Assembly: GCA_030614785.1 (NCBI GenBank)
Contig: JAUWTJ010000032.1
Location: 1-41,944 of the forward strand
DNA: 41,944 bases
Origin: Alphaproteobacteria bacterium
GTDB lineage: Bacteria > Pseudomonadota > Alphaproteobacteria > M2410
Direction of reading: 5' to 3'
Below are positions 2,519 to 38,304 of this stretch, in pieces; position 1 is the stretch's first letter, and every line of letters begins with the position of its first letter. Below the pieces are notes generated by a model. It was not told the origin of the DNA, ran no database searches, and saw only the letters and a list, made by a program, of their open reading frames with translations. The position numbers and the translations under genes are program-made.

Positions 2519-3723
2519 TCATCAGTAATGCCCTCTCTCTTGCTGTTCGCGAAATTCGCCGGAACCTCCTGCGTTCCGGCCTCACAACGCTGGGTGTCGT
2601 CATCGGCATCGCCGCTGTTATCGCCATGGTCAATCTGGGTGAGGGGGCCACAACACGGGTGACCGGCGATATTGCCAGCCTGGGTCGGAACCTCATCATT
2701 GTCTCTCCTGGCGGAGACCACAATAGTGGTCCGGGCACCACCGCCCCCCCGTTCGATGTCGCTGACGCCGAGTCCATTGCCCGGGAAATCCCCGGAGTGG
2801 TGGCAGTTGCCGCCGTCAGCAGCCAGCTTGCCGTTGCCGTTTATGGCAACGCAAACTGGCCGACAAGCGTTCTTGGGACAGACAACGCCTATTTCGATGT
2901 CAGGGAATGGTCTGTGGAAAGAGGCCGTGTGTTTGATGCCGGAGAGTTGCAAGCGGGAAAAGCGGTTTGCGTTATCGGCGAAACGGTCGCTCTGGAACTC
3001 TTCGGCTTTCAGGATCCAATTGGCGCTTCGATCCGGTTCCACAAGCTGTCGTGCAAGGTCATTGGTGTCCTGGACGCCAAAGGCCAGTCGAGCTTTGGTC
3101 AGGACCAGGATGATCTGATCATTCTGCCTTTACGCACCTTCCAGCGACGACTGACAGGCAATCAGGACGTTGCCCTGATCTTTGTTTCCGCCAGAAGCGG
3201 GCAGCTGACCGGAAAGGTCCAACAGGACGTGACAGCGCTTATGCGTGAGCGACGTCACATCCCTCCGGGACAGCAGAGCAATTTCCAGGTCAGTGACATG
3301 AAAGAGATCGTCAATATGGTGGAGAGCGCTACCGGCATTCTTACGGCTCTCCTCGGAGCGATCGCCGGGATCAGTCTTTTGGTGGGCGGTATCGGAATTA
3401 TGAACATCATGCTGGTATCGGTTACCGAACGGACACAGGAAATCGGCATTCGCCTCGCCATCGGGGCAATGGAACGTGATGTCCTGATGCAGTTCCTTGT
3501 TGAAGCCATGGTGCTGTCGTCAATTGGGGGGATCTTCGGTGTCGGCCTTGGTCTGGCCTGCTCTGCGATTGTCGGTCACTATCTGGACACGCCGTTCGTT
3601 TTCAATCCACTCATCATCATCGTTGCCGTGGGCTTTTCGTGCCTCGTCGGGGTTGTCTTCGGTTATATGCCTGCGCGCCGTGCTGCTCGTCTCAACCCCA
3701 TCGACGCGCTCCGGCATGAGTAG
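2515..3723 (+). CDS. MacB-like ABC transporter permease (FtsX family)
   Basis: Membrane component of the pump, 402 residues. The topology matches MacB: one N-terminal transmembrane helix (about 21-42), a large periplasmic domain (about 45-265), then three helices with the conserved segment around VGGIGIMNIML, a cytoplasmic loop carrying EIGIRLAIGA, and a C-terminal RRAARLNPIDALRHE tail typical of the family. ATGA overlap with the ATPase gene shows a three-gene operon driven from the FNR-type promoter. Nothing obviously belonging to the operon follows; the next gene is a stress protein 464 nt on. Confidence 0.93.
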   Translation: MIISNALSLAVREIRRNLLRSGLTTLGVVIGIAAVIAMVNLGEGATTRVTGDIASLGRNLIIVSPGGDHNSGPGTTAPPFDVADAESIAREIPGVVAVAAVSSQLAVAVYGNANWPTSVLGTDNAYFDVREWSVERGRVFDAGELQAGKAVCVIGETVALELFGFQDPIGASIRFHKLSCKVIGVLDAKGQSSFGQDQDDLIILPLRTFQRRLTGNQDVALIFVSARSGQLTGKVQQDVTALMRERRHIPPGQQSNFQVSDMKEIVNMVESATGILTALLGAIAGISLLVGGIGIMNIMLVSVTERTQEIGIRLAIGAMERDVLMQFLVEAMVLSSIGGIFGVGLGLACSAIVGHYLDTPFVFNPLIIIVAVGFSCLVGVVFGYMPARRAARLNPIDALRHE

Positions 3724-5063: not shown

Positions 5064-5117
5064 CAGGGTACGGAAAGTGGTCGCGTAGTTCGGATCATGC
5101 GAATCCTGAAGGGTCAC

Positions 5118-5262
5118 TCTCTTCATACTCAATGTGAGGGTCAGACTCTTCTTCCGTCTGCCTGACTTCATTTGCAGCAGCTCTTTGGTGCACAACAATC
5201 CGCCACAGATGATAAGCCACACGGTGCAGCCATCCCATGCTGTCCAGCCGCCGCATCGCTTC
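5118..5262 (-). pseudogene. Duplicated 3' fragment of the Na/Pi cotransporter gene
   Basis: This 145-bp segment matches 7909-8053 with no gaps and five mismatches. Read on the minus strand it encodes the same C-terminal tail (AMRRLDSM, then HLWRIVVHQRAAA and EEESDPHIEYEE) as the intact cotransporter. It has no start or upstream part of the gene. The surrounding minus-strand frame (5095-5286) remains open but joins unrelated residues at both ends. Together with the intact copy it forms direct repeats around PEP synthase. Confidence 0.85.
5118..5262. repeat. 145-bp direct repeat, copy 1
   Basis: Copy 1 of a direct repeat whose second copy is 7909-8053, offset 2791 bp, with 140 of 145 bases identical by eye. 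The pair brackets the PEP synthase gene. Confidence 0.88.
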
Positions 5263-7873: not shown

Positions 7874-9523
7874 TTAAGGCGGCCCTCCGAGAGAATTTCG
7901 TAGATCATTCTCTTCATACTCAATGTGAGGGTCAGACTCTTCTTCCGTCTGCCTGACTTCATCTGCAGCAGCTCTCTGGTGCACAACAATCCGCCACAGA
8001 TGATAAGCCACACGGTGCAGCCACCGCATGCTGTCCAGCCGCCGCATTGCTTCTCCTGTCTCGATTTCTCCGGCCGAGGCTTTGGCGATCGTGTTCTTTC
8101 GATATTCCGGCCTTTGCTCTCGCAATTGCTGACGCATCTGATCGAGCTCTTGTTCCACTTCAATCCGACTTCCACTCTTGAGGAGTTTCTGCACCTCCAC
8201 ACGAAGTTCACCCGCCAATTGTCGAAGAATTGGTTCGGACCTTAACTGTACAACCCGATCCTGCCGGAGACAGCGATAATATAGACGTGTCAGGTGATCC
8301 AGGGCATGAATGACGGCCATCTGCCTTTGATGTGCATGAGTTTGACTCGGATCATGTTCCATCCGTTCGGCATACTCGCGAGCTTTGGAGAGAGCCAGAC
8401 CGACGAGTTCCAATTCTTGATCGACCCTCAAACGCCGGCGCGGTTCGAGCTCCTCCGCAAGCGCCGTAAAAAGTGAACGGGCGATATCATGAAGCGAGGC
8501 CGAGGCGGCGTCAGCAGCTGCATGGGGGTCGGACAGAAGGCCATCATCCAGCCTGGCGGTCAGGTCCGGACCATGTTCTGGAACGAGCCTGATCAACAGC
8601 TTCGCGAAGCGACCTGTAAAGCCGATCACTGCAATGACACCCAGCACATTGAACATTGTATGAAAGGCAACCAGGCCGATCAGGGGGCCGCCGATGCCCT
8701 TAACGCCATTCGCTTCAACAAACCATGCCAGGGGAATAAGCAGAAGAAAGGCCATTGCCCCGGTCAGGACATTGAAAATGACGTGGGCATAGCCGGTTCG
8801 ACGCGTCGCAGTTGACCCTCCGACAGTGGCGAGCGCGGCGGTAAATGTGGTTCCAACACCCATGCCAATCACCATTGCGGCGGCTTGTGTAAATGTAATG
8901 GCGTCAGCACCCAAGGCTGCCAATGCGGTCGCAACTCCCGCACTGGAAGACTGAGTAACCAAGGTAATCACAATCCCAATCAGGACCAATTGCAGCCGCC
9001 CGAACATCGTATCCGTTGGAAAGACGTCCGGATTGACAATGTCTTTTAAGTCAACCATGCTCTGCTGCATGGCGGTAATGCCAAAGAAAAGCAGGCTGAA
9101 ACCGGCCAGCACCCATCCCAAATGCTTCACGCGTCCACGCCCAAACATTCTCAAAAGCACCCCAATGAGAATGAGTGGCATAACGGCCTCCCCAAGCTGC
9201 AGTCTGAAGCCGAGAATGGCAACCAGCCAACCGGTAAGCGTCGTGCCGACATTTGCTCCAAATATGATTCCCAGTGCTTGAGGAAAAGCAATCAGGCCTG
9301 CACCAACGAAACCTACAGTCGCAACCGTTGTCGCGCTTGAGGACTGCATCAGAGCGGTTGCCAGCATGCCTGTGATTGCGCCACTGACCGGGCTTCTGGT
9401 TGAGCGTCTCAGAAATCTGCGAAGCGTATCTCCTGCAAGCGCGCGCAACCCGTCGGTCAACACCAGCATGCCCAGAAGGAAGAGGCCTACACCACCGATC
9501 AATATGAGGAGTGAGAGGTACAT
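7874..9523 (-). CDS. Na/Pi cotransporter family protein with PhoU-like tail
   Basis: Inner-membrane sodium-dependent phosphate transporter (NptA / type II Na/Pi family), 549 residues. The membrane half (1-310) contains two inverted repeats, each with the hallmark QSSS motif (60-63 and 191-194) that forms the substrate site. The C-terminal third is helical and charged, like the PhoU-type domain that many bacterial members carry. The last 48 residues or so are encoded by the sequence duplicated at 5118-5262. Start ATG at 9523. It is divergent from groEL; the FNR-type box in the shared spacer is positioned for groEL, not for this gene. Confidence 0.93.
   Translation of the reverse strand: MYLSLLILIGGVGLFLLGMLVLTDGLRALAGDTLRRFLRRSTRSPVSGAITGMLATALMQSSSATTVATVGFVGAGLIAFPQALGIIFGANVGTTLTGWLVAILGFRLQLGEAVMPLILIGVLLRMFGRGRVKHLGWVLAGFSLLFFGITAMQQSMVDLKDIVNPDVFPTDTMFGRLQLVLIGIVITLVTQSSSAGVATALAALGADAITFTQAAAMVIGMGVGTTFTAALATVGGSTATRRTGYAHVIFNVLTGAMAFLLLIPLAWFVEANGVKGIGGPLIGLVAFHTMFNVLGVIAVIGFTGRFAKLLIRLVPEHGPDLTARLDDGLLSDPHAAADAASASLHDIARSLFTALAEELEPRRRLRVDQELELVGLALSKAREYAERMEHDPSQTHAHQRQMAVIHALDHLTRLYYRCLRQDRVVQLRSEPILRQLAGELRVEVQKLLKSGSRIEVEQELDQMRQQLREQRPEYRKNTIAKASAGEIETGEAMRRLDSMRWLHRVAYHLWRIVVHQRAAADEVRQTEEESDPHIEYEENDLRNSLGGPP
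7909..8053. repeat. 145-bp direct repeat, copy 2 (inside the cotransporter gene)
   Basis: This is the parental copy, being part of the intact gene; the partner is 5118-5262. Differences are five point substitutions, no gaps. Confidence 0.88.
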
Positions 9524-11504: not shown

Positions 11505-12599
11505 CTGTCCCTCCCAAAAACTAGATTCTGCAATAGTGATGATGCAACCCTCCGACCTTCGGGATGCGATCGATGGTGCCAAATTTCTGAATCAGACGAC
11601 TTTTGGGAGCATCCTTGCTCAGAGAAAGATGCGTACGGGAATGGTTGTAATAGTCAGCATAGCTTCGCATGATCCGGCGTAGATGAGCCGCATTGAAGAC
11701 GATAACATGATCGAGACATTCCCGCCGTATCGAGCCAATTACACGTTCTACATGACCATTTTGCCATGGAGATCGCGGTGACGTCGGTCGGTCCCGAATT
11801 CCCATCGACCAAAGCCTTTGTCGAAACACATGACCGTAAGCGCCGTCATTGTCTCTGATGAGATAGCGAGGCGCACTCTCCCACGGGAACGCTTCCGTGA
11901 GCTGCTGAGCCAGCCAAATCGAAGTCGGGTTTGAAGTGACGGCGAAATGAATAATCCGTCTTCGCCTGTGATCCAGGATCACAAGGCAATACAGAATATT
12001 GAACCTGATGGTCGGTACAGTCAGGAGATCAAGCGAAGCAATGCCCTCTGCATGGTTCTTCAAAAAAGTGTTCCAACTCTGGGATCCCGGACGGTGACCT
12101 CTCACCACATAGTTCGAAACGGTTGCTTCAGAAACCTCAATCCCGAGCTTGAGAAGCTCGCCATGTATCCGCGGCGCACCCCACAGGGGATTGGCCAGAC
12201 ACATGTCCCGGATCAAATCCCGTAATTCCTTGTTGATCCTCGGCCTGCCACCCAGACTGCGGGATTTGAGTCGCCAGTAAGCCTTAAAGCCCTGTCGATG
12301 CCATCTCACGATGGTCGCGGGCGACACAATCCTCGTCGTCTCGAGCAGAAACGGAAAAAGACGATAAAACCAGACAATTGTCAGCCGATCCCAATTGCCC
12401 AGTCCCAGTCTATTGGGCACCTTTCGCCGCAATACATTGAGTTGATGCCGGAGAAACGCATTCTCAGCCTCTAGCCGGGCCTTCGACTTGAACAGCCCCG
12501 AAATAAGGGCAAACAGAATTTTCCAGATCTCTATCATCGCCACTAATCATGACATGATTCCATCTCCACTCTCCGAAATTGAGTTTTTAGGAGGGACAG
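11505..12599. mobile_element. Complete insertion sequence with integrase-core transposase
   Basis: An 1095-bp element bounded by 18-bp terminal inverted repeats: CTGTCCCTCCCAAAAACT at 11505-11522 and AGTTTTTAGGAGGGACAG at 12582-12599, 17 of 18 bases matching. It contains one transposase gene on the minus strand. I see no target duplication in the flanks. It is inserted between a transposase relic and the tail of a serine recombinase gene. Confidence 0.88.
11521..12543 (-). CDS. DDE integrase-core transposase
   Basis: A 340-residue rve-type transposase. A helix-turn-helix-like N-terminal half contains the SLGGRPRINKEL and GAPRIHGELLKLG segments. The catalytic core has D in ASLDLLTVPT, D in LIRDNDGAYG and E in WQNGHVERVIGSIRRE. 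The single uninterrupted frame and intact ends suggest it could be active. The stop lies within the left inverted repeat. A related but truncated copy is at 25745-26146. The family is in the IS3/IS481 superfamily; I cannot name the ISfinder group. Confidence 0.9.
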   Translation of the reverse strand: MAMIEIWKILFALISGLFKSKARLEAENAFLRHQLNVLRRKVPNRLGLGNWDRLTIVWFYRLFPFLLETTRIVSPATIVRWHRQGFKAYWRLKSRSLGGRPRINKELRDLIRDMCLANPLWGAPRIHGELLKLGIEVSEATVSNYVVRGHRPGSQSWNTFLKNHAEGIASLDLLTVPTIRFNILYCLVILDHRRRRIIHFAVTSNPTSIWLAQQLTEAFPWESAPRYLIRDNDGAYGHVFRQRLWSMGIRDRPTSPRSPWQNGHVERVIGSIRRECLDHVIVFNAAHLRRIMRSYADYYNHSRTHLSLSKDAPKSRLIQKFGTIDRIPKVGGLHHHYCRI

Positions 12600-12766
12600 C
12601 TGATGTCAGCCGTCTTCTGCCCCTCGCCTTCCTGTCTCCGGACATTATTGAAAGCATCCTGGCTGGTCGACAGCCAGTCGGCCTGACGGCTCAGAAGCTG
12701 AAACGTCTGCCCCGTCTGGCCATCGGCTGGAGCGACCAGTCAGAGCAATTGGGATTTGCCCGCTAA
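12600..12766 (+). pseudogene. C-terminal stub of a serine site-specific recombinase
   Basis: Immediately after the IS end an open frame encodes about 54 residues containing LLPLAFLSPDIIESILAGRQP, then LTAQKL and WSDQSEQLGF before TAA. This matches the conserved tail of large serine recombinases (APDI-EAIL-GRQP-LT, LDWAEQR-LGF). The catalytic and DNA-binding parts are missing, cut by the IS. The annotation rests on recognising this tail. Confidence 0.75.
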
Positions 12767-12977
12767 AGCTCTGACTTCCACTTCATTATTCGGCATCAAA
12801 GCAGCATCATGACCGCTGCAGCCCACATCAAACTGGCCAACGGATTGGACGTCGAAACCCACCGCAAGAGACGCTTTGCCAAATCCCGATAAATCCCCTC
12901 CAAAGAGACTATTCCAGCGGTGACTTCGATGCATGGAATGCACCCAAGCCTTTGAAACGTCGGAGGGTTCCAGGACT

Positions 12978-13039
12978 CGTCTCCTGGCCGTCTCAACAAG
13001 GGAGACTGCGTGGTGGTGGGTGCAGTCCTGTGCGAACCC
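12978..13039. repeat. Structured repeat, copy 1
   Basis: Copy 1 of a 62-nt element repeated at 27976-28037. The 38-nt core (13002-13039) differs from copy 2 by a single base. The first part folds as a hairpin (GTCTCC pairing with GGAGAC); copy 2 has GTCTCG and CGAGAC, a compensatory change. Inside the core ACTGC and GCAGT (around 13005-13026) can form a second stem. An additional overlapping hairpin (CCAGGA with TCCTGG, 12970-12987) is present only in this copy. The type is unknown; a fragment of a structured RNA such as a group II intron domain is possible. Confidence 0.65.
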
Positions 13040-13451
13040 GTCTCCATACGGATTTCCCTGTTTTACAGGGAATTAACAGGGAAATTTCGCGATTCAGGTC
13101 CAATTCCACCGAAATCCCCGCGATTAATGCAGCAAGATCAGTGGGTTGCGGACAAATTCCCTAAGAAAGATAACAGGGAATTTTTCCAACCAAACAGGGA
13201 AATAGATCGTTGGAACTGGGAAACTTTTCCATCGATCAGGCAATGCCCTCAAGCTTGGATCCTGCGCCCCATTTTTCCAGCGCGTTCAGAGTATTGATCA
13301 GAAACTTCCCAGACCCTGTCAAAGACAACTAATTCAAGAACCGAGGCTTTCTGCACCGGATGGGGTTTTTGGTATGCACACGAGTCAATTTCTGATTTTG
13401 ATCGCCTCTGCGCATAAATCGGCAGACTTTGGCGTACTGTGCCTGGTCGCT
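13040..13451. other. Non-coding relic with CAGGGAA repeats
   Basis: No intact gene. Four direct copies of CAGGGAA (13066, 13077, 13174, 13195) and an 8-bp inverted repeat TTCCCTGT/ACAGGGAA (13054-13072) are present. Translation gives FYRELTGKF, then DNREFFQPNREIDR, resembling decayed NREF-rich peptides that I have seen downstream of recombinase genes in other alphaproteobacteria. The rest, 13205-13451, shows nothing recognisable. Confidence 0.45.
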
Positions 13452-23322: not shown

Positions 23323-23549
23323 GCGAGCACCTCCTTGCGTCTCAAACAAAGCGATTGCTCCGGCCCACGCGCGTCGGGTGATCGAAGTCATCTTTCTGGA
23401 GATTGTCTCGGGATAGAATGCTACCGCTTAACAGGGCAGCGAACCGTGCGATCGCGATAAATCAGTGTAACCTCAAGATGGGGGCTCGGGTCGAACATGT
23501 CAAGCTCACAATCATTGCTAGAATATCTGCAGGCTTATGCCAACAATCC

Positions 23550-24744
23550 TGTTGGGTGCGAATTGCTATTTTTCACACAAATGTGAGAGATTTCCCAGTC
23601 TTGTCATGCGCGATCATTTGACTACGATCACCGGCCATGCGTGATCTTACCATCCTTTTCGCCCATCTTCTCGTAACAATCGTCCGCTTGTTCGGTCCCG
23701 GCGGTACACGGTCTGTCATTGCTGAATCTCTCTCCTAAAACATCAGCTTCTTGTTCTCAATCGCTCACGAGGGCGAGCTCCGAGCCTTCGGCCAATAGAC
23801 CGGGTCATTGTGGGGCTGTGCGCAATCCTGATGCGCCCTGCCCGCTTGACGCGATCAGCCATTGTCCTCAAGCCCTCCACAGTCCTCAGCTTCCATCGTG
23901 CACTAGTCAAACGGAAATACCGCCTGCTCTTCACACCGAAAACGCGCGGCAAGCCTGGCCCCAAAAGGCCCTCTGCCGAACTGGTCTCTCTCATCGTCGA
24001 GATGAAGCACAAAAACCCGAACTTCGGTTACCAGCGTATTGCCGATCAGATCTCCCAGGTCTTTGACATCAAGATAGACAAGCACCTGGTGCGGCGCGTG
24101 CTGGCGAGGCACTGCAAACCAGGGCCAGGTTCTAACGGTCCATCCTGGCTCACACTCCTTGGTCACAGCAAGGACAGCCTTTGGAGCGTGGATCTCTTTC
24201 GATGTGAATCGCTGTCCCTCAAGTCACATTGGGTCATGGTCGTCATGGATCAGTTTACCCGGCGGATCATCGGTTTTGCCGTTCATGCAGGTGCGCCTGA
24301 TGGGCCAGACGTATGGCGTATGTTCAACAGCATCATTTATGGATCCGGGAGTCCACGATACTTGAGCTCGGACAATGACCCGCTCTTCCGCTACCGCCAG
24401 TGGATCGCCAATCTCCGGATTCTCGAAGTGACGCAGGTGAAGACTGTTCCTCATGTTCCTCTGTCGCATCCCTTTGTCGAACGACTGATCGGCACGATAA
24501 GGCGAGAATATCTGGACCATGTCCCTTTCTGGAATGCTCATGATCTGGAAAGAAAGTTACTGTTGTACAAGGAATACTACAACACCATCCGTCCTCATCA
24601 GGGAATCAAGGGCGCTTTGCCCGATCCACACTGCGACAAAATCGATCGAGAAAGCGCTCGCCTCAATGCCTTTAGATGTAAAGCTCACTGTCATGGCTTG
24701 TTTGAGCTACCGGAAGCCACTTGAATAGTAATTCTCCCCCCACA
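23550..24744 (+). mobile_element. IS copy 1 (integrase-core IS, frameshifted)
   Basis: Left end TGTTGGGTGCGAATTGCTATT at 23550-23570; right end 24724-24744 is its inverted complement at 17 of 21 positions. The same ends bound copies 3 and 4. The transposase gene inside is frameshifted, so this copy is probably not autonomous. Confidence 0.85.
23637..24724 (+). pseudogene. Transposase of IS copy 1, frameshifted
   Basis: Homologous throughout to the intact 362-residue transposases at 26867 and 34747. One base is missing near 23731, creating an in-frame TAA at 23736-23738 after 33 codons (MRDLTILFAHLLVT, then VIAESLS-stop). The downstream part is open from 23810 and keeps the DDE residues: D in SVDLFR, D in SSDNDPLF, E in HPFVERLIGTIRRE. 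Confidence 0.88.
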
Positions 24745-25728: not shown

Positions 25729-26146
25729 TTGTCCTTACCAAAAACTATATCCGAACATACTGATGGTGCAATCCGCCAAGCCATTCGACTGACTTGATTG
25801 CACCTGCCCCCTGAATAGCTCTTTTGTCCGGCGAGTCTTTCTCCAAAGACAGATGTGTCCGCGCGGAATTGTAGTACTGCACGTACTGCCGCATGATCCG
25901 ACGAAGATGTGCTTCGCTGAAGACAATCACATGATCGAGGCATTCCCGCCGGATAGACTCGATCACGCGTTCAGCGTATCCGTTTTGCCAGGGTGATCGA
26001 GGGGATGTGGGTCTGTCCCGAATTCCCATCGCCACCAGACGCCGGCGATACGCTAATTCAAAGGCTCCGTCGTTGTCTCTGATAAGAAAATCAGGAGCTT
26101 CGTCCCACGGAAAAGCCTCTGTGATCTGCCCGGCGACCCACTCAGT
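25729..26146. mobile_element. IS fragment related to the 11505-12599 element
   Basis: One end is preserved: TTGTCCTTACCAAAAACT at 25729-25746, 15 of 18 bases matching the left inverted repeat of the complete element. The other end is missing, cut where IS copy 2 begins at 26147. Confidence 0.8.
25745..26146 (-). pseudogene. C-terminal half of a DDE integrase-core transposase
   Basis: About 134 residues are homologous to the C-terminal part of the transposase at 11521-12543 (LIRDNDGAF, MGIRDRPTSPRSPWQNGY, RRECLDHVIVF, GGLHHQYVRI). The N-terminal half including the first catalytic Asp is gone, replaced at 26147 by the left end of IS copy 2. Confidence 0.88.
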
Positions 26147-26778
26147 TGTGGCGTGAGAATTGCAATTCTTCACATGAATCTGAAGGATTTCCTAGTCTTG
26201 TCATACGCGGTTGTATGGTTACGATTACCCAGTGATGCGTGATCTCGCCATACTCTTTGTCCACCTTCTCGTAACGATCGCCCGCTTATTCGGGCCGGGC
26301 GGCGCCCGGTCTGTCGTTGCTGAATCTCTGCTCGTGAAACATCAACTTCTTGTTCTCAATCGCTCACGAGGGCGAGCACCGAGCCTTGGACCAACAGACC
26401 GCGTCATTTTTGGACTGTGTGCAATCCTGATGCGCCCTGCTCGCTTGTTGCGCTCAGCCATTGTCCTGAAGCCCTCCACAGTGCTCAGCTTCCATCGCGC
26501 ACCGGTCAAACGGAAATACCGCCTTCTCTTCACACCGAAAACCCGGGGCAAGCAAGGTCCCAAAGGACCCTCTGCGGAACTGATCTCCATGATCGTCGAG
26601 ATGAAACGCAGGAACCCGAACTTCGGTTACCAGCGTATCGCCGATCAAATTTCCCTGGTCTTCGATCTCGAGATTGACAAGGACATAGTACGGCGCGTGC
26701 TTGCCAGACATTACAAGCCGGAGCCAGGCTCCAACGGCCCCTCCTGGCTCACTTTCCTGGGCCACAGCAAGGACAGCC
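26147..26778 (+). mobile_element. IS copy 2 (left half only)
   Basis: Left end TGTGGCGTGAGAATTGCAATT at 26147-26167 is a diverged form of the family end. The copy stops at 26778, where the left end of copy 3 begins. Its right half is not found on the other side of copy 3, so this is not a simple nested insertion; sequence was lost afterwards. Confidence 0.83.
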
Positions 26779-26783
26779 TGTAG
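26235..26783 (+). pseudogene. Transposase of IS copy 2, truncated
   Basis: N-terminal 182 residues of the family transposase (MRDLAILFVHLLVTIARLF to FLGHSKDSL). The frame ends at a TAG contributed by the first bases of copy 3. All catalytic residues lie in the missing half. Confidence 0.9.
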
Positions 26784-27975
26784 GGTGCGAATTCCAATTT
26801 TTCGCATGAACACTTCGAATTTCCTAGTCTTGTTATGCCTAAAGTTCTGGCTACGATGCCGCGGATATGAGCAACCTGGCTTTACTTTTCATCCACCTCC
26901 TCGTAACGATTGCCCGCTTGTTCGGACCAGGCGGTGCTCGATCTGTCGTTGCTGAATCTCTGCTCGTAAAACATCAACTTCTGGTTCTCAATCGTTCGAA
27001 GAAGAGAGCACCAAAACTTCGGCCATTGGATCGGCTAATTGTTGGGCTATGTGCAATCTTCATAAAGCCCAAACGCTTATTGCGATTGGCCGTTATTCTG
27101 CAACCCTCCACAATTCTCAGCTTCCACAGGGCGTTGGTAAATCGCAAGTACCGCCTGCTGTTCTCATCAAGAATACCTCGTAAGCCAGGTCCTAAAGGAC
27201 CATCCGAAGAGTTAGTCTCGCTGATCGTCGATATGAAGCGCAGGAACCCAAACTTTGGTTACCGGCGTATAGCCGATCAGGTTTCCCTGGTTTTTAATAT
27301 TGAGGTCGACAAAGATTTGGTACGGCGCGTGCTGGCTCAACACTACAAGCCAGACCCTAAATCCAATGGTCCATCCTGGCTCACTTACCTGGGCCATAGC
27401 AAAGACAGCCTGTGGAGCGTCGACTTCTTTCGATGTGAATCGCTGATCCTCAAGTCACACTGGGTGATGGTCGTTATGGATCAATTCACCCGGCGTATTG
27501 TCGGCTTTGCTGTCCGCGCCGGCCCCCTTGATGGACCCACGGTATGTCGAATGTTCAACGGCATCATCAGCAGGTCAAAAATCCCGCGATATTTGAGCTC
27601 GGATAATGATCCGCTATTCCGATACCGACAATGGAACGCCAATCTCCGAATACTTGAAGTCACGCAGGTTAAAACCGCTCCCTACGTTCCTCTGTCGCAT
27701 CCCTTTGTCGAGAGGCTGATCGGCACAATAAGGCGAGAATACCTGGATCAAATATCTTTCTGGACAGAGAGTGATCTGGAGAGAAAACTGCAGCTGTACA
27801 AGGAATATTACAATCAAGCCCGTCCTCATCAGGGGATCGGTGGCGCCCTACCAAGTCAACATGGGAAAAACGCAGATCAAAAGATCACCAGGCCAAAAGC
27901 CTATCGCTGGAGAAAGCATTGCCACGGCTTGTTTCAGCTACCAGAAGCCACTTAAATAGTAATTCGCACCCAACA
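26779..27975 (+). mobile_element. IS copy 3 (complete)
   Basis: 1197 bp, bounded by TGTAGGGTGCGAATTCCAATT (26779-26799) and the inverted AATAGTAATTCGCACCCAACA (27955-27975). Intact transposase. It is more diverged from the other copies than they are from each other. The right end abuts the structured repeat copy 2. Confidence 0.88.
26867..27955 (+). CDS. DDE integrase-core transposase of IS copy 3
   Basis: A full-length 362-residue transposase. The N-terminal hydrophobic stretch (LALLFIHLLVTIARLFGPGG) is unusual for a transposase but constant in this family. Core: D in WSVDFFRCES, D in LSSDNDPLFRY, E in HPFVERLIGTIRREYL, consistent with an rve fold. Stop codon TAA lies just before the right inverted repeat. 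Confidence 0.9.
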   Translation: MSNLALLFIHLLVTIARLFGPGGARSVVAESLLVKHQLLVLNRSKKRAPKLRPLDRLIVGLCAIFIKPKRLLRLAVILQPSTILSFHRALVNRKYRLLFSSRIPRKPGPKGPSEELVSLIVDMKRRNPNFGYRRIADQVSLVFNIEVDKDLVRRVLAQHYKPDPKSNGPSWLTYLGHSKDSLWSVDFFRCESLILKSHWVMVVMDQFTRRIVGFAVRAGPLDGPTVCRMFNGIISRSKIPRYLSSDNDPLFRYRQWNANLRILEVTQVKTAPYVPLSHPFVERLIGTIRREYLDQISFWTESDLERKLQLYKEYYNQARPHQGIGGALPSQHGKNADQKITRPKAYRWRKHCHGLFQLPEAT

Positions 27976-28037
27976 CGTCTCGTGGTCGTCAAAACCAGCG
28001 AGACTGCGTGGTGGTGGGTGCAGTCCGGTGCGAACCC
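27976..28037. repeat. Structured repeat, copy 2
   Basis: Begins at the base after the IS copy 3 right end. The core 28000-28037 is identical to 13002-13039 except for one T/G difference. The leading hairpin has GTCTCG/CGAGAC in place of GTCTCC/GGAGAC, a compensatory pair, with equal spacing in both copies. It lies within what was the alanine dehydrogenase gene. Confidence 0.65.
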
Positions 28038-28115
28038 AACTCACGATATCCAAATTCGAATCTCCTCCTCAAAACCAAAAGAAAAGTCCGCGGATGGAAT
28101 AAATGGAAGGCACAA

Positions 28116-28257: not shown

Positions 28258-28530
28258 CTACTCTCCTTCCAATTCAGACTTCGGAGCCTGATGCTTCTTC
28301 TGAAAATATCCGACACATCCTTCAAGCGTCTCCAGATCAGGATAGTCCACCTCGGGTATATCGACCCCGGTGGCCTCATGCATCGCGATGATAAAATTGA
28401 GGAAATCCATGGAATCAATTTCAAATTGATCGCGAAACGCACTTCCTGGCTCAATTTTCTCGCCCTCAAATTCCGGAGCAATGGAAAAGAGTGTGCGTTG
28501 CACCAGATCTATAATTTCTTCCTCCGTCAT
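28258..28530 (-). CDS. Acyl carrier protein
   Basis: A 90-residue acidic four-helix protein. The phosphopantetheine attachment site is Ser40 in the motif DSMDFLNF, preceded by FEID. It carries acyl groups as thioesters. Its start overlaps the E2 stop (ATGA), so it belongs to the acetyl-CoA synthetase/PDH operon; a dedicated acceptor for acetyl groups is an inference from this context. It is not the housekeeping AcpP, which has DSLDTVEL and sits in fatty acid synthesis clusters. Confidence 0.92.
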   Translation of the reverse strand: MTEEEIIDLVQRTLFSIAPEFEGEKIEPGSAFRDQFEIDSMDFLNFIIAMHEATGVDIPEVDYPDLETLEGCVGYFQKKHQAPKSELEGE

Positions 28531-29672
28531 AATGCTTCTGGCTCCTGCAATAGTTTATCCAGGGCACCAAGGAACCGCGCTCCGATACGGCCATCACTTG
28601 CTCGGTGATCACCGGCCAAAGTCGCCGTAATCAATTGCCGCCTCCGAACCTCGCCATCCACCACCCAGGGCCGTACGTTGATCGAACCAATGCCCAGTAT
28701 CGCCACCTGGGGAGGATAGATTATTGGCAAGATGGCTTCGACATTGCCCTCTCCGACATTGCTGATTGTGAAAGTGGAACCCGTCAGCTCAGACCCTCGC
28801 ATGTGGCCTTGACGCACACGCCCTGACAGGTCGCGCAGTTTCGCCATCAGCTCGGCGACCGAAAGCTCATTGGTGTTGAGAATTGCGGGGGCCACCAGGC
28901 CGCCTCCGCGCAAGGCGATCACAACACCAATATTGATCTCTTTACTTGCCTGAAATGCATCATCAGCCCAGGTACCATTGATCTGTGGCACCTGATCAAG
29001 CGCCCGCGCGACCGCCTTGATCAGCGGGACCGCAGGCAAGATCCGTTCTGCAACAGGCACCTCCTCGTTGAATGTGGCGAGCCAGCTGGTCATCCTTGTT
29101 ACATCAATCGTGGCACTCACATAGTAGTGAGGGATCTCACGTTTTGATCTTGTCATGGCCGCCCCAATGGCTGATCGCATGCGAACCAGATCAATGCCCG
29201 CTGCCCTATTTTCAAGTTTGGCTTCTGCTTCAGCGCCCTGCCCGGTTGCACCAGCCGTGCGCTCGACATCGGATATCGTTATGGCACCGGCAACTCCGGT
29301 TCCAGAAACGATATCCAGATCGACATCAAGGTCTTTCGCCCGCCGCCTTGCCGCTGGCGAGACACGGATACGTCTGGGTGTTGATGTGTCAGAACCGCCA
29401 ACAGCGACACTCTCACTTGATGTTACACCAGCACCGGCGACCCCTTCAATTTGAGCAATCACGTCACCCACATCCCGATATTCGCCGACTGCCGCCGCGA
29501 TATCCTTTAGTATCCCATCCTCAAAGACCTCAATCTCAATCGCGCCCTTGTCAGTCTCAACTACCGCAATAATTTCTCCGTGATGGACTTCGTCACCGGG
29601 CTGTTTGAGCCATTCGACCACCGTTCCACCTTCCATATCAGCTCCCAGAGACGGCATAGGAAATTCGCTCAT
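28527..29672 (-). CDS. Dihydrolipoamide acetyltransferase (E2) of a 2-oxo acid dehydrogenase
   Basis: Transfers acetyl groups from E1 to CoA. A 381-residue protein with one lipoyl domain (1-75; lipoyl Lys42 in [11 protein letters not shown]), a Ser/Thr linker, a peripheral subunit-binding domain (about 100-135; [13 protein letters not shown], then [15 protein letters not shown]) and the acyltransferase core ending with the catalytic HxxxDG (DHRASDG, about 352). No dihydrolipoamide dehydrogenase (E3) gene follows, so E3 must come from elsewhere. ATGA overlaps with E1 beta upstream and the acyl carrier protein downstream. Confidence 0.95.
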
Positions 29673-30658
29673 GATGCCCCCACAATCTTCAGGACGCTTT
29701 GAATGACGTCCTCTGTCTGAGGCAAGGCAGCCTCTTCCAGGTGACGCGCATAGGGAATTGGAACCTCGGCACTACATAGACGCTCGACAGGCGCGTCGAG
29801 TTCGTAAAAGGCCTGCTCCATGATACGCGAGCTAATCTCCGCTGCCAGACTTCCGCTACGCCACCCTTCATCGATAATCAGTGCTCTGTGTGTTTTGACA
29901 ACTGAACCCACAATTACCTCATCGTCCAGGGGGCGCAACGAGCGTAGGTCAACGACCTCGCATAAGATGCCTCTGCTCGCCAGATGTTCGGCGGCCATCG
30001 TCACCTTTGGCAGACAGCCGCCATAGGTAATCAGGCTAATGTCAGTCCCTTCACGGCGGACTTTCGCCCGGTCAATATCAACGGCACCAGCATCAGCCGG
30101 GATCGCCTCTTTCATGTTGTAGAGTGTCGCGGGTTCAAACATGATAACTGGGTCTGGACATTCCAGTGCCGTCCACAACATCCCGCGCGCGTCTGCAACT
30201 GTCGCCGGTGATACAACACGCACGCCAGGAACATGGGCATACCAGACTTCAAGGCTGTGCGAATGCTGAGCCGCAAGCTGTAACCCCCCGCCGGTCGCCA
30301 TCCGGATAACCAGCGGAACCGAAAACTGGCCACCTGACATATGCCGTATCGTCGCCGCATTGTTTACGATTTGGTCAATAGCAAGGAGACTAAAGTTGAC
30401 GGTCATGATTTCGACGATTGGCCGCATGCCACCAAGGGCTGCTCCGATGCCCGCGCCGGTGAAACCGGATTCCGCAAGTGGGGTATCGCGCACACGATCT
30501 TCCCCGAACTCTTCTTGTAGCCCTTTGGAACAGGCGTAGGCACCACCGTAGCGGCCCACATCTTCGCCCATGAGAAAGACGCGGTCGTCACGCCGCAGCG
30601 CATCCTGAAGGGCCTGGCGCACGGCCTCGCGGTATGTCATTTCCACTGGCCCATTCAT
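29669..30658 (-). CDS. Pyruvate dehydrogenase E1 beta subunit
   Basis: A 329-residue transketolase-like subunit. It has the typical [11 protein letters not shown] start, [14 protein letters not shown], then [17 protein letters not shown], and the C-terminal transketolase domain ([16 protein letters not shown], then [12 protein letters not shown]). It pairs with E1 alpha to bind thiamine diphosphate and decarboxylate pyruvate. ATGA overlaps with the genes on both sides. Substrate could be another 2-oxo acid such as acetoin, but the neighbouring acetyl-CoA synthetase favours pyruvate/acetyl-CoA. Confidence 0.95.
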
Positions 30659-31671
30659 GGCGCCGCCTCCGCCTCAGGGGTGTAGACATCGCGTGCCAGA
30701 TCACCGATTGGTTCAAATTCACCTCGTTCCGCAAAACTCACCGCTTCAGCCACCTCAGCTGCGACCTCCTGCTCAATATTCTCGATGTCATGGTCTGCCA
30801 GCAACCCCTCGCTCTTTACTTTGTCCAGAAACGAGACAATGGGCCCGCGCGTCTTCCATTCCTCGACTTCGGTCTTTTCGCGATAGAGTTCTGCATCAAA
30901 CATTGAGTGAGCACGAAAACGATACGTCTTGTTCTCGAGAAAATAGGGGCCGCCCTCTTTCCGAATTTTGTCACAGGCTCGCCGGGCCGCTGCTTCAACT
31001 GCCAGAACATCCATGCCATCGACGACTTCTGATGGCACATTGTAACTTTGAGCATGTCTGTAGATTTCGGTTTGAGATTCCGAGCGCTCCAACGCCGTAC
31101 CCATCGCATACAAGTTGTTTTCACATACAAACAAGACCGGCAATTTCCAAAGGGCTGCAAGGTTCAGCGATTCATGGAACTCGCCTTCAGCCGCGGCACC
31201 CTCACCAAAGAAGCAACATGTGATGTTATTGTGACCTTGCATCTTGTCCGCCAACGCCAGCCCCACAGCAAGTGGCAGGCCTCCGCCCACGATAGCGTTA
31301 CCGCCATAGAATTTTGTTGCAGCATCAAAGATATGCATGGAACCGCCGCGGCCCCGACTGGTGCCCTCAACCTTGCCAAACATTTCAGCCATTATTGCTC
31401 CGGCCGAAACACCCCGCGCCAGGGCGTGGCCATGTTCACGGTATGTGGCAACTATGGCATCGGCCGGTCCCAGTGCCTCCATTACACCAACAGCATTGGC
31501 CTCTTCGCCAACATAAAGGTGCAGAAAACCGCGTATGAGGCCTGTGCTATAAAGTTCGGCGCATTTTTCTTCAAACCGTCGAATGAGGACCATCTTTGCC
31601 ACCAATACGCGTGCATGCTCTCTGGTCAATGTGTCGTCAAAGTTCGGAGCTTTTCCATCAGGGCCAGTCAT
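30655..31671 (-). CDS. pdhA: Pyruvate dehydrogenase E1 alpha subunit
   Basis: A 338-residue thiamine diphosphate-dependent subunit. It shows [40 protein letters not shown] and the ThDP motif GEG (156-158) with NN 28 residues on (185-186). The usual GDG is GEG here, which is seen in several E1 alpha proteins. It overlaps the synthetase stop upstream (ATGA) and E1 beta downstream. Confidence 0.95.
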
Positions 31672-33437
31672 GAATAGGTCTCCAGCGTCGAGACATCTCC
31701 TGTCGGCAGATTCAGCTCTTGTGCCTTCAAGAGACGGCGCATGATCTTGCCGCTGCGGGTTTTGGGCAAGCTGTCCCGGAACTCAATCTGCCGCGGCGCA
31801 ATGGCCGGACCCAGGCGTTTGCGGGCATGAGCCAGAATATCACGCAGCAATGCATCATCAGCCTCACAATCATCTCTGACTGTAACGAAAGCCTTGACAC
31901 TTTCTCCCGCAATCTCATCTGGCAGACCAATCACTGCCGCTTCGACAACCGCGTCATGTTCGACAAGCGCACTCTCCACTTCGAATGGCCCAATCAGATG
32001 TCCCGCCGACTTGATGACATCATCGGCGCGTCCAACAAACCAGAAGTAACCGTCCTTGTCTCGGCGCGCCAGGTCTCCTGTGAGATACCATCCGTCACGA
32101 AAGCAGCGTTGGTAACGTTCCTCTTGCCCGAGGTAGGAACGAAACATGGATGGCCAGCCACTGCGCAGGACCAGTTCCCCATCTCGATCCGGATCAGTAA
32201 TAAAATCAAGCTTATCGTCGTCACTATGCTCGATGATCGCAGCCTCAATCCCTGGAATCGGCACCCCCATGGAACCAGGCTTGACAGCGAGGGAAGCTGT
32301 ATTGGCAATCATGATTCCGCCGGTTTCGGTTTGCCACCAGTTGTCGTGAATGGTCTTGTCAAGCACGTCAACGCCCCAGCGAACAGCTTCGGGGTTCAGG
32401 GGTTCGCCAACACTTGCAATAAATCGCAACTTCGAGAGGTCGTAATTGCCGGGCACCGTATCTTCCAGCCTCATCAACATTCGGATCGCTGTTGGTGCCG
32501 TATACCAGACCGTCACTTTTTGATCCTGCAATGTCTGATACCACCGTTGAGCGTCAAACTCCTGCTGATCAACTATCATTGTCGCTCCAACGACCAGTGG
32601 AGCAATGATGCCGTATGATGTTCCTGTCACCCAACCTGGATCGGCCGTGCACCAAAAGATATCCTCCGGATGAAGATCAAGAGCAAACTTTGCTGTGGCA
32701 TAGTGAGCGAGGACTGCCTGGTGGACATGAACAGCGCCTTTTGGCGTCCCGGTTGTTCCACTTGTAAAATGTAGTATCGCTGCGTCGTCCGGACGTGTAG
32801 CTACTATGTTGAAATCGGACGCGGCCCCGCGCATGAGGTCTTCGAAATAGCAAGTGCCACCCGGGGCTTCATCTTTGTCGCTGTCGTTGTTTTCACCAAC
32901 GATAATGACATATTCCAGATCTGGCAGTTCATCCCGTATCACAGCGACTTTGCGGCGATAAAGGCGTTCTGTTGTAACCAGAACTCTCGCCGCACCAATC
33001 GTCATGCGCGCCTTAATTGGTTCCGGACCAAAGGCTGCAAACATTGGACAGAATACGCCGGCGATCTTGAAGACCGACAGAGCGGTGACGTAGAGTTCTG
33101 GAATGCGGTCCGAAAGCACAAAGACGCGATCACCTTTGACAATCCCCAACCCCGACAATGCGCTGGCAAACCGGTCCGAACGTTGTTTCAACTCGGTATA
33201 GGTGATGTCAGTGGTCTCGCCCGTCTTTGCCAGCCATCTGATCGCGATATATTCACCGCGTGGCCCCGCAGCATGTCGATCAACGGCTTCATGAGCGATA
33301 TTCAGAGCTCCGTCCGGCAGACCGTCCAGCTCCTTTGCGACCTCATCCCAGTAGACATCAGGGCTCCGGTCTTCGTGTGTGGACAAACAAGTCCGGCCTG
33401 ATTGGGCTCCGTTCGCTTTGCTAAATACCTCTGTCAT
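31668..33437 (-). CDS. acsA: Acetyl-CoA synthetase (AMP-forming acetate-CoA ligase)
   Basis: Activates acetate with ATP and CoA to acetyl-CoA. About 589 residues. It has the P-loop-like [10 protein letters not shown] (225-234), the A5-type WWQTETGG, the hinge region ([25 protein letters not shown]) and the C-terminal catalytic Lys in SGKIMRR (about 564), which is the site usually regulated by acetylation. It resembles the shorter AcsA-type ligases rather than the 650-residue Acs. ATG 33437 is chosen because GGAG lies upstream and the N-terminal extension to 33545 looks unlike the family; this start is not certain. First gene of an ATGA-linked operon; usp lies 155 nt upstream on the same strand. 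Confidence 0.93.
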
Positions 33438-33592
33438 TTTCCCGGTACACTCCGCGGCTGGTTTTTGCTGAACTTCGCCCTCAGGATCTGGATAGATGAA
33501 TGTCTTACATAACCTTACATTCCCCGGATACCCGGCGTGGCGCATTTGAATCCGAACACGCCATTCTTGCCCGGCCGGTATACTTTTGACCG

Positions 33593-34633: not shown

Positions 34634-34658
34634 TCATACCGATTGAACGGAAATTACC

Positions 34659-35855
34659 TGTTGGGTGCGAATTGCTATTCGTCACACAAATGTGACAGAT
34701 TTCCCAGTCTTGTCATACCCGATATTTTGATTACGATGGCTCGGTGATGCGTGATCTTGCCATACTTTTCATCCACCTTCTCGTAACGATTGCCCGCCTG
34801 TTCGGCCCAGGCGGTGCCCGGTCCGTGGTTGCTGAATCTCTGCTCGTAAAACACCAGCTTCTCGTTCTCAATCGTTCGCGGGCGCGAGCACCGAGCCTTC
34901 GACCAATGGACCGGGTTATTGTGGGGCTGTGTGCAATCCTGATGCGACCTGCCCGCCTGTTGCGATCGGCCATTATCCTGAAGCCCTTCACGGTCCTCAG
35001 CTTCCATCGTGCACTGGTCAAACGGAAATACCGTCTGCTCTTCACACCGAAGACCCGGGGTAAGCCAGGTCCCAAAGGACCCTCTGCGGAATTGATCTCC
35101 ATGATCGTCGAGATGAAGCACAAAAACCCGAACTTCGGTTACCAGCGTATCGCCGATCAGATTTCTCTTGTCTTAGATGTCAAGATTGACAGGGACCTGG
35201 TCCGGCGCGTACTTGCCAAGCATTACAAGCCGGTGCCTGGCTCCAACGGTCCATCCTGGCTCACTTTCCTGGGCCACAGCAAAGACAGTCTTTGGAGCGT
35301 GGATCTCTTTCGATGTGAATCGCTGACCCTGAAATCATATTGGGTGATGGTCGTCATGGATCAGTTTACCCGGCGGATCATCGGTCTTGCTGTTCATGCC
35401 GGGGCGCCTGATGGACCTGGCGTGTGCCGCATGTTCAACAGTATCGTCAGCGGATCCGAAAGTCCGCAGTACTTGAGTTCGGACAATGACCCGCTCTTTC
35501 GTTACCGACAATGGGAAGCCAATCTCCGCATTCTTGAAGTGACGGAAGTAAAGACAGTTCCTTACGTTCCCTTATCGCATCCGTTCGTCGAAAGACTGAT
35601 TGGCACGATACGGCGAGAATATCTGGACAAGGTTCCATTCTGGAGTGCCCGGGACCTGGAGAGAAAATTACTGCTCTACAAGGAATATTATAACAGAAGC
35701 CGTCCTCATCAGGGACGCAATGGCGCTTTACCCGATTCAGGCTGCAATAAAACGGATCGGAAGAACTCTCGTCTGGACGCCTTTCGATGGAAGGCTCATT
35801 GTCACGGCCTTTATCAACTGCCTGAAGCCACTTGAGTAGCAATTCGTACCCCACA
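34659..35855 (+). mobile_element. IS copy 4 (complete)
   Basis: 1197 bp with left end TGTTGGGTGCGAATTGCTATT (34659-34679) and right end AGTAGCAATTCGTACCCCACA (35835-35855), inverted repeats at 18 of 21 positions. Intact transposase. The right end lies 9 bp from the nqrF stop codon. No target duplication is evident. Confidence 0.9.
34747..35835 (+). CDS. DDE integrase-core transposase of IS copy 4
   Basis: A full-length 362-residue transposase, starting MRDLAILFIHLLVTIARLF. D in WSVDLFRCES, D in LSSDNDPLFRY, E in HPFVERLIGTIRREYL; tail AHCHGLYQLPEAT. Of the copies in the window this is closest to the frameshifted copy 1 and to fragment copy 5, so it is the best candidate for a recently active member. 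Confidence 0.92.
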   Translation: MRDLAILFIHLLVTIARLFGPGGARSVVAESLLVKHQLLVLNRSRARAPSLRPMDRVIVGLCAILMRPARLLRSAIILKPFTVLSFHRALVKRKYRLLFTPKTRGKPGPKGPSAELISMIVEMKHKNPNFGYQRIADQISLVLDVKIDRDLVRRVLAKHYKPVPGSNGPSWLTFLGHSKDSLWSVDLFRCESLTLKSYWVMVVMDQFTRRIIGLAVHAGAPDGPGVCRMFNSIVSGSESPQYLSSDNDPLFRYRQWEANLRILEVTEVKTVPYVPLSHPFVERLIGTIRREYLDKVPFWSARDLERKLLLYKEYYNRSRPHQGRNGALPDSGCNKTDRKNSRLDAFRWKAHCHGLYQLPEAT

Positions 35856-37228: not shown

Positions 37229-38011
37229 TGTAAAGCCCCCATCTTATGTACCACTTTCTAATAGAGTTTCTGGCACCGGTGGACGCATGTTCAGGGCCTG
37301 ATGAGGGCGGATGTGATTGTACTGTTTCAGCCATGTTTCGATGACGACCTGAGCCTGTTTGATTGAAGTGAACCATTCTGCATTGAGGACTTCCCTGCGC
37401 AGCGTTCCGTTGAAGCGTTCATTGTAGCCGTTCTCCCACGGGCTCCCCGGATAGATGCGGATCGGCTTGATGCCAACTTTTGTCAGCCAGGTCTGGAAGT
37501 TCTCGGCAATAAACTCGGGACCATTGTCTGACCTGATGAACTCCGGCCTACCATGTTTCAGGAAGAGAGGATAGAGAGCCTCCAGAACCTCCGCATTACC
37601 CATTCGAGGCTTCACGGCGACACACAGGGCTTGACGGGTATACTCATCCAGTACGGTCAGCATTTTATAAGACCTGCCTCCCGCCAATTTATCGTGGACA
37701 AAATCAATGCTCTAGATGTGGTTCTGATACTTCGGACGCAGCCGGATGATCGAGCTGTCCTTGTGATAGAGACGCTTCCGCTTCCTGTGACGCTGCGGTA
37801 TCTGGAGACCTTCTTCCCTCCAGAGCCGTTCTAACTTCTTGTGATTGACCTGCCAGCCTTCAATGCGAAGCAAGGCAGCAATCTTCCTATAGCCGTAGCG
37901 GCCATATTGCTTTGCCAGTCTGATCAAAGCCAGCCGAAGGCTGTCATCATCTCCAACCAATGTGATAATGCTCCGTATGGAAATTCTTCGATATAGTACG
38001 CCGATTGTCCT
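37229..38011. mobile_element. IS3-family element fragment
   Basis: A recognisable end TGTAAAGCCCCCATC starts at 37229, beyond the transposase stop. The other end and the first open frame are missing, cut at 38012 by IS copy 5. Confidence 0.7.
37244..37960 (-). pseudogene. IS3-family transposase OrfB with an amber codon
   Basis: Two consecutive frames in one register encode QYGRYGYRKIAALLRIEGW, then NHKKLERLWREEGL, then after an in-frame TAG (complement of 37712-37714) SIDFVHDKLAGGRSYKMLT, IRSDNGPEFIA and PGSPWENGYNERFNGTLRRE. The TAG replaces the Trp found at this place in the family (W-SIDFVHD), so a single G-to-A change inactivated it. The DDE residues remain. The N-terminus before VGDDDSL is missing. 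Confidence 0.88.
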
Positions 38012-38304
38012 GTGAGGTGCGAATTGCTACTCAAGTGGCTTCGGGCAGTTGATAAAGGCCGTGACAATGAGCCTTCCACCGAAAGGCGTCCAGACGAGCG
38101 TTCTTCCGATCCGTTTTATTGCAGCCTGAATCGGGTAAAGCGCCATTGCGTCCCTGATGAGGGCGACTTCTGTTAAAATACTCCTTGTAGAGCTGTAATT
38201 TTCTCTCCAGATCGCCAGCATTCCAGAAGGGCACCTTGTCCAGATATTCTCGCCTGATGGTCCCAATCAGTCGTTCCACAAAAGGGTGTGACAGAGGAAC
38301 GTAT
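38012..38304 (-). mobile_element. IS copy 5 (3' end fragment)
   Basis: TGTGAGGTGCGAATTGCTACT at 38012-38032 is the right end of the family in reverse orientation. Homology to copy 4 continues to about 38304 and then stops in the middle of the transposase gene. Confidence 0.85.
38031..38304 (-). pseudogene. C-terminal fragment of the IS copy 5 transposase
   Basis: About 90 residues (YVPLSHPFVERLIGTIRRE to HGLYQLPEAT) nearly identical to copy 4. The frame extends into non-homologous DNA up to 38384, which is not part of the IS. Confidence 0.88.

Follow-up and report, generated by a model that had tools for sequence, protein, structure and literature searches.

The locus raises the question why a sequence of 62 nt with a potential hairpin occurs twice, with identical spacing, among the remains of mobile elements on an alphaproteobacterial contig, at 12978-13039 (copy 1) and 27976-28037 (copy 2) of the window, i.e. 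the whole stretch of 41,944 nucleotides which was analysed. A preliminary description had interpreted it as a dispersed element linked to a recombinase and selected for its RNA or DNA fold. Both copies are present as described, and the repeat search of the window detected them as family D8 (12975-13044 versus 27973-28042, 86% over 70 nt). The 38-nt core (GAGACTGCG to GCGAACCC) differs between them by a single base (T/G), and the 6-bp stem carries the described double change from C-G to G-C, its arms reading GTCTCC/GGAGAC in copy 1 (12979-12984 / 13001-13006) and GTCTCG/CGAGAC in copy 2 with one pair altered on both sides. In a search of the whole genome copy 2 matched copy 1 with an E-value of 4e-17, far above chance, and at least 4 further copies were detected on other contigs.

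The kept pairing had been regarded as the mark of selection on RNA or DNA structure, which would make the element a small RNA, an intron domain or a REP-like hairpin. However, other copies in the same genome break the pairing, an outcome which the preliminary description itself had named as refuting. Judged by the columns of this stem, 4/6 positions pair in the copy on contig C102, 1/6 each in the recombinase-proximal arms (P arms) on C106 and C133, and 4/6 in the copy on C5, which has no GACTG. Folding of 34 such arms gave mean z-scores of -0.18 and +0.04 on the + strand and z-scores of -0.35 to -0.72 on the other strand, no common fold was found across these 34 P arms, and the suggested check against Rfam and group II introns produced no covariance-model match for the element copies. 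Clear conservation within the last 40 bases of the 34 P arms is confined to GACTG just ahead of TGG, and in copy 1, too, this word (13004-13008) is all that the family conserves of the P arm. The double change itself is not readily produced at random, as a stem of this kind emerged in ca. 1% of random-substitution trials on the copy-1 arm and in 0.1% of shuffled arms; a chance level of ~0.01 for the two-copy double change is suggestive, but not decisive. Moreover, in three genomes (G069, G327 and G328) the P arms of the tRNA-Gln-targeting islands retain a CCACC/GGTGG hairpin at this position, and such a hairpin may have a trailer, terminator or local structural role in some lineages. Nevertheless, the conserved part of the element begins at TGG, downstream of the stem, and we consider an element under pairing selection as quite unlikely and this explanation as largely refuted. 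The dispersed element, the mobile-element wreckage and the recombinase link of the original reading persist; its selection on an RNA or DNA fold is not supported.

The conserved part was defined on 183 distinct copies, obtained after de-duplication from relatives, GTDB contigs and IMG/VR contigs (~180 used in profiles). Hosts with names are mostly Alphaproteobacteria, the few other labels stemming chiefly from metagenome bins. The consensus of the ~180 copies, TGGYGGTGGnnGCAGTCnnnnGCGAACCCGTCTCYG, has an abrupt left edge with 1.30 bits at the T of TGG (position -11) and 0.04 bits at position -12. In copy 1 the conserved block extends from TGG (13011) through GTCTC (13044) and excludes the 5' half of the hairpin, which lies upstream of TGG. 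The commonest hexamers at the start of this half-site, termed P', are TGGCGG (66), TGGTGG (50) and TGGCTG (15) among 180 copies. To the right of P', TTCCCTG...ACAGGGAA repeats were found in 132/180 copies versus 24/3000 random positions. These TTCCCTG/CAGGGAA repeats run ~200 nt past P' in L016, L021 and the window (13050-13230), and the stretch is a possible candidate for an accessory-factor binding region. Some copies are clearly two-armed (L120, viral contigs and the C133 P arm); a family-wide palindrome was not found, the pairing showing no excess over shuffled pairing and nothing beyond column composition.

Long exact patterns had no match in the genome and viral collections, a shorter gapped pattern did match, and no match to the element was found in the phage collection. 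A single match came from the plasmid collection (Methylocapsa), and a gene for a DNA methyltransferase is located ~2.3 kb rightward of it. Many short viral-labelled IMG/VR contigs (L203-L226) contain P' with methylase, DUF5681 and terminase genes rightward; a microvirus origin of the 4-6 kb IMG/VR contigs was rejected on account of their ParB/methylase, DUF5681 and terminase genes. An IMG/VR subtype, whose target may differ, carries CGCTGGAGGAG ahead of GCAGTC. Near some P' sites (L051 at 1317, L119 at 2536 and L120) there is another half-site of a related type, GGTGCTGTCAGTCYAANGCGAACCAGTCTCC, which may be the P arm from a sister lineage; in L120 it stands head-to-head with P'.

The recombinase link became more specific on comparison of the gene fragment beside copy 1 with the L224 recombinase. 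As had been described, copy 1 adjoins a recombinase stub; in tblastn, its segment 12605-12760 matches residues 642-693 of that protein (E = 1e-9, 50% over 52 aa). The stop codon is at 12764-12766, and the C-termini placed side by side read ...IGWSDQSEQLGFAR followed by the stop in the window and ...LPLDWAAQKMLLGFA in L224. According to Pfam the L224 recombinase consists of Resolvase (PF00239, E = 4e-40) and Recombinase (PF07508, E = 3e-13) domains, by sequence the architecture of a large serine recombinase (LSR), and its gene is preceded by a DUF2924 gene (PF11149). The genome under study has an intact LSR gene with a YTRKST motif on C106; the window contains the C-terminal stub only. Among the 13 near copies listed the LSR gene lies left of the site, always on the same strand, and ends 190-364 nt away in 12/13 cases and 519 nt away in the exceptional one. 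ParB-N/N6_N4 methylase, DUF5681 and phage terminase genes are located on the right side in 39/42 (on the same strand), 12/12 and 15/15 cases, respectively.

We also approached the element from the recombinase side by sampling relatives of the L224 recombinase across the class and inspecting the DNA past their stop codons. Approximately 170-420 nt past the LSR gene, a P arm, often ending with GACTGnn, abuts the TGG of a tRNA gene; elsewhere the same kind of P arm abuts the TGG of a P' site. The facing tRNA genes are intact and lie on the opposite strand, TGG being the complement of CCA. In the unbiased set 15/27 LSRs have an intact tRNA within 450 nt, its CCA end toward the LSR and its start exactly at TGG. 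The full set of 50 LSRs comprises 18 with a tRNA, 16 with a P-P' junction and 16 with neither, and the full site is absent downstream of most LSRs sampled. The target tRNAs are those for Ser, Gln, Met (CAT anticodon, possibly Ile2), Ala, Lys and Tyr, and the hexamers at the 18 tRNA junctions are TGGCGG (8), TGGTGG (5) and TGGCTG (5). Methylocystis rosea (L104) is one example of an isolate whose island at tRNA-Gln is intact. The left edge of the element at TGG is explained by these junctions of related, DUF2924-linked LSR genes. In addition, the P' word CGAACC is the complement of the tRNA T-loop word GGTTCG and is located 3 bp further from TGG in P' than in the tRNA, CGAA being found 19 nt from TGG in 18/18 tRNA targets and 22 nt from it in the P' profile.

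A site which begins as CCA in complement and includes the reversed T-loop word GGTTCG might also be the displaced 3' fragment of a tRNA, left by an ordinary island of a tyrosine integrase, the usual enzyme at tRNA genes (PMC4383910). However, whereas true displaced fragments carry a repeat of the tRNA end, the identity to the tRNA here ends after ~6-7 nt, and in every target checked there is a 3-nt offset of CGAACC (22 vs 19). Moreover, the adjacent integrase is a serine recombinase and an ARAGORN search of the copies revealed no tRNA, so that this origin appears very improbable. The element might further be taken for a terminal repeat belonging to a DDE transposon or an insertion sequence. 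Such a repeat would be compatible with the sharp left edge, the dispersed copies and the rve-type IS gene near several of them, but would leave the geometry of recombinase plus tRNA unexplained. The IS gene, which looks like an independent insertion, is near only 8/183 copies and a matching inverted end was not found, and we regard this assignment as hardly credible.

In our judgement the 62-nt element is, with high probability, not a structured RNA but an attachment site of the attP type, belonging to prophage-like integrative elements which an LSR moves. The assignment is based on what is seen in the sequences, namely the junctions, the order of the genes and the matches of tRNA and hexamer. 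We propose the following scenario: The LSR would recombine attP, composed of the P arm (...GACTGnn), TGGNNG and P' (...GCAGTCnnnnGCGAACCCGTCTC), with the 3' terminus of a tRNA gene, which reads TGGNNG...TCGAACC when followed in the direction of the LSR gene, CCA appearing there as its complement TGG. The LSR is thereby presumed to act on these sites by crossover within TGGNNG and to recognize the T-loop via CGAACC. After integration the tRNA would be whole, its CCA end joined to the P arm beside the LSR gene (attR), and P' would be placed at the far end and joined to the former tRNA-downstream sequence (attL). P' copies would thus have a sharp left edge and unrelated left flanks. Stacking of several elements at one tRNA would create P-P' junctions behind LSR genes, and a P-P' arrangement might therefore represent either attP or the place where stacked islands meet.

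Linked ends of islands were found on single contigs, where P' is followed by a same-strand LSR gene in G199 (30 kb), G208 (25 + 33 kb, two islands), G156 (37 kb), G069 (48 kb) and G240 (6 kb). In these and in the genome under study (G000:C5, with P' at 3531, a recombinase fragment at 1586-1230 and tRNA-Ser at 818-907) the presumed attL and attR lie at opposite ends of one island. The hexamer beside P' is that of the target tRNA in 7/7 linked islands checked, the pairs being TGGCGG with Ser, TGGTGG with Tyr and TGGCTG with Gln; the target in G199 is just a short tRNA-Ser-like stretch. In G069 the order P'-LSR-P-P'-LSR-P-tRNA-Gln is realized in one run, which by sequence is a tandem array of two islands at one tRNA-Gln. 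Tandem islands have also replaced an integron-like cassette array, an earlier interpretation of the several loci with copies in one orientation. As a separate observation, tRNA-Gln(CTG) is an integration hot spot in the genus of G069 (L317-L331), almost every relative having a different sequence downstream of it.

A clean single-island empty site was not recovered from the comparisons of G156, G199, G069/G327/G328 and the genome under study. In G156, the gene adjoining tRNA-Tyr in congeners is 63 kb apart from the tRNA with an LSR gene and P-P' in between, but the leftmost junction has no recognisable P' and a clean single junction was not obtained. The joined flanks of G199 had no match within its genus, a congener flank was not found in G069, G327 and G328, and the GMC-oxidoreductase flank in the genome under study had no match in relatives. 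The 16/50 LSRs with neither tRNA nor P-P' nearby count against the attP model, and G096 is a contrary case in which the LSR gene precedes P', and thus has the "wrong" side, on a contig where no other P' was seen.

The features of both window copies are compiled in the table below. At copy 1 the order is LSR C-terminus, spacer, GACTGCG, TGGTGG, P' and TTCCCTG arms, and to judge from its sequence the copy fits an attP or the P-P' junction of a tandem insertion behind an LSR stub. TamB- and Omp85-type genes follow to the right, from which we conclude that the remainder of the island has been lost. Copy 2, whose position at an IS end was borne out, lacks the TTCCCTG arms and is by sequence a truncated relic. 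It adjoins an alanine-dehydrogenase-like fragment, and next to this the minus-strand genes (28258-33545) form an unusual group, which encodes a carrier protein with phosphopantetheine binding and a 2-oxoacid dehydrogenase E2, followed at some distance by an AMP-binding enzyme. Several IS copies with an rve-type transposase, diverged members of one family, are clustered within 15 kb (23536-24744, 26145-27972, 34645-35855 and 37997-38303); they share the end ...GGGTGCGAATTGCTA, and some are truncated or inverted. Elsewhere in the window, a direct repeat of 149 nt with 96% identity (5114-5262 and 7905-8053, 2.8 kb apart) brackets the gene of a PEP-utilising enzyme.

Table. Coordinates of the features at both element copies in the window; site assignments are putative
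Feature	Position	Strand	Basis
Integrase-core (rve) IS gene, abuts recombinase stub	11521..12543	-	Pfam PF13683, HTH_32
C-terminal stub of a DUF2924-type large serine recombinase (~residues 642-693)	12605..12766	+	tblastn with L224 recombinase
P arm of copy 1, recombinase side; holds the hairpin of the preliminary description	12979..13010	+	profile of 34 P arms; pairing test
Presumed crossover region TGGTGG, complement of tRNA 3' end CCACCA	13011..13016	+	conservation edge; hexamer identical at tRNA junctions
P' half-site of copy 1, TGGTGGTGGGTGCAGTCCTGTGCGAACCCGTCTCC	13011..13045	+	position-weight score 51.7; ~180-copy profile
Repeat arms TTTCCCTG..ACAGGGAATTAACAGGGAAATT, just inside the element end	13050..13086	+	arm enrichment among P' copies
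P arm of copy 2 (CGTCTCGTGGTCGTCAAAACCAGCGAGACTGCG), left side cut by IS end	27975..28008	+	sequence; alignment to copy 1
P' half-site of copy 2 (TGGTGGTGGGTGCAGTCCGGTGCGAACCC), diverged or truncated past GCGAACCC	28009..28037	+	sequence; own-genome match covers query 3-40 only

Among known systems the sites resemble those of the Listeria A118/LI integrase, in which the zinc-ribbon motif occupies positions 16-24 of an attP half-site but lies closer to the centre by 5 bp in attB (PMC3783163). The sites described here likewise have two arms around a short, presumed crossover region. If their centre is assumed within TGGY/GG, GCGAACCC in P' would be located at ~17-24 from it and the shared word 3 bp nearer to the centre in the tRNA, compared with 5 bp in LI. 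By analogy, this suggests that P' may mimic the tRNA T-loop. In contrast to LI, the left arm is almost unconserved and the targets are tRNA genes instead of one protein gene (PMC3783163). An LSR-type enzyme (DsiB) at tmRNA has been published for the ssrA islands of Dehalococcoides (PMC3146451), which share with the present ones the serine recombinase, the 3' region of an RNA gene as target, tandem stacking and leftover sites. However, the CcrB-like DsiB inserts into the tmRNA T-loop with a 20-bp ssrA direct repeat (PMC3146451), whereas here the CCA end of many tRNAs is used with ~6 bp shared. The alphaproteobacterial prophage WO of Wolbachia is also integrated by an LSR and its att sites were predicted by the same logic, being assigned to the magnesium chelatase gene or intergenic regions; tRNA is not mentioned (PMC9203015). 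Tyrosine-integrase islands in the Islander database resemble those described here in tRNA-gene integration, a tRNA kept whole and tandem arrays, and differ in the integrase family, which is serine here (PMC4383910).

Serine integrases and their att sites are already known, and according to a database paper of 2015 tRNA genes were not a known target class of the serine integrase family. What the sequences appear to add is an alphaproteobacterial LSR clade whose junctions with tRNA genes of about six kinds are exact and reusable. No description of DUF2924-linked LSRs at tRNA genes was found in the literature outside subscription journals, and newer island databases may list LSR-at-tRNA cases uncommented. 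With slightly less than even confidence, we speculate that this clade might be a general tRNA-gene integrase which recognizes two features common to all tRNA genes, the T-loop GGTTCG and the CCA end. In this case attP would repeat the T-loop word in a shifted position and a variable hexamer would set the isoacceptor group (Ser, Gln, or Met/Ile-Ala-Lys-Tyr); in some lineages the P arms may then supply a new hairpin trailer for a tRNA cut off from its own downstream sequence. The attachment-site assignment would explain a widespread unannotated repeat and allow such prophage-like islands, and the scars of decayed ones, to be mapped. For genome engineering it would also provide a set of recombinases together with their natural target sites, a use which is suggested because the tRNA stays intact.
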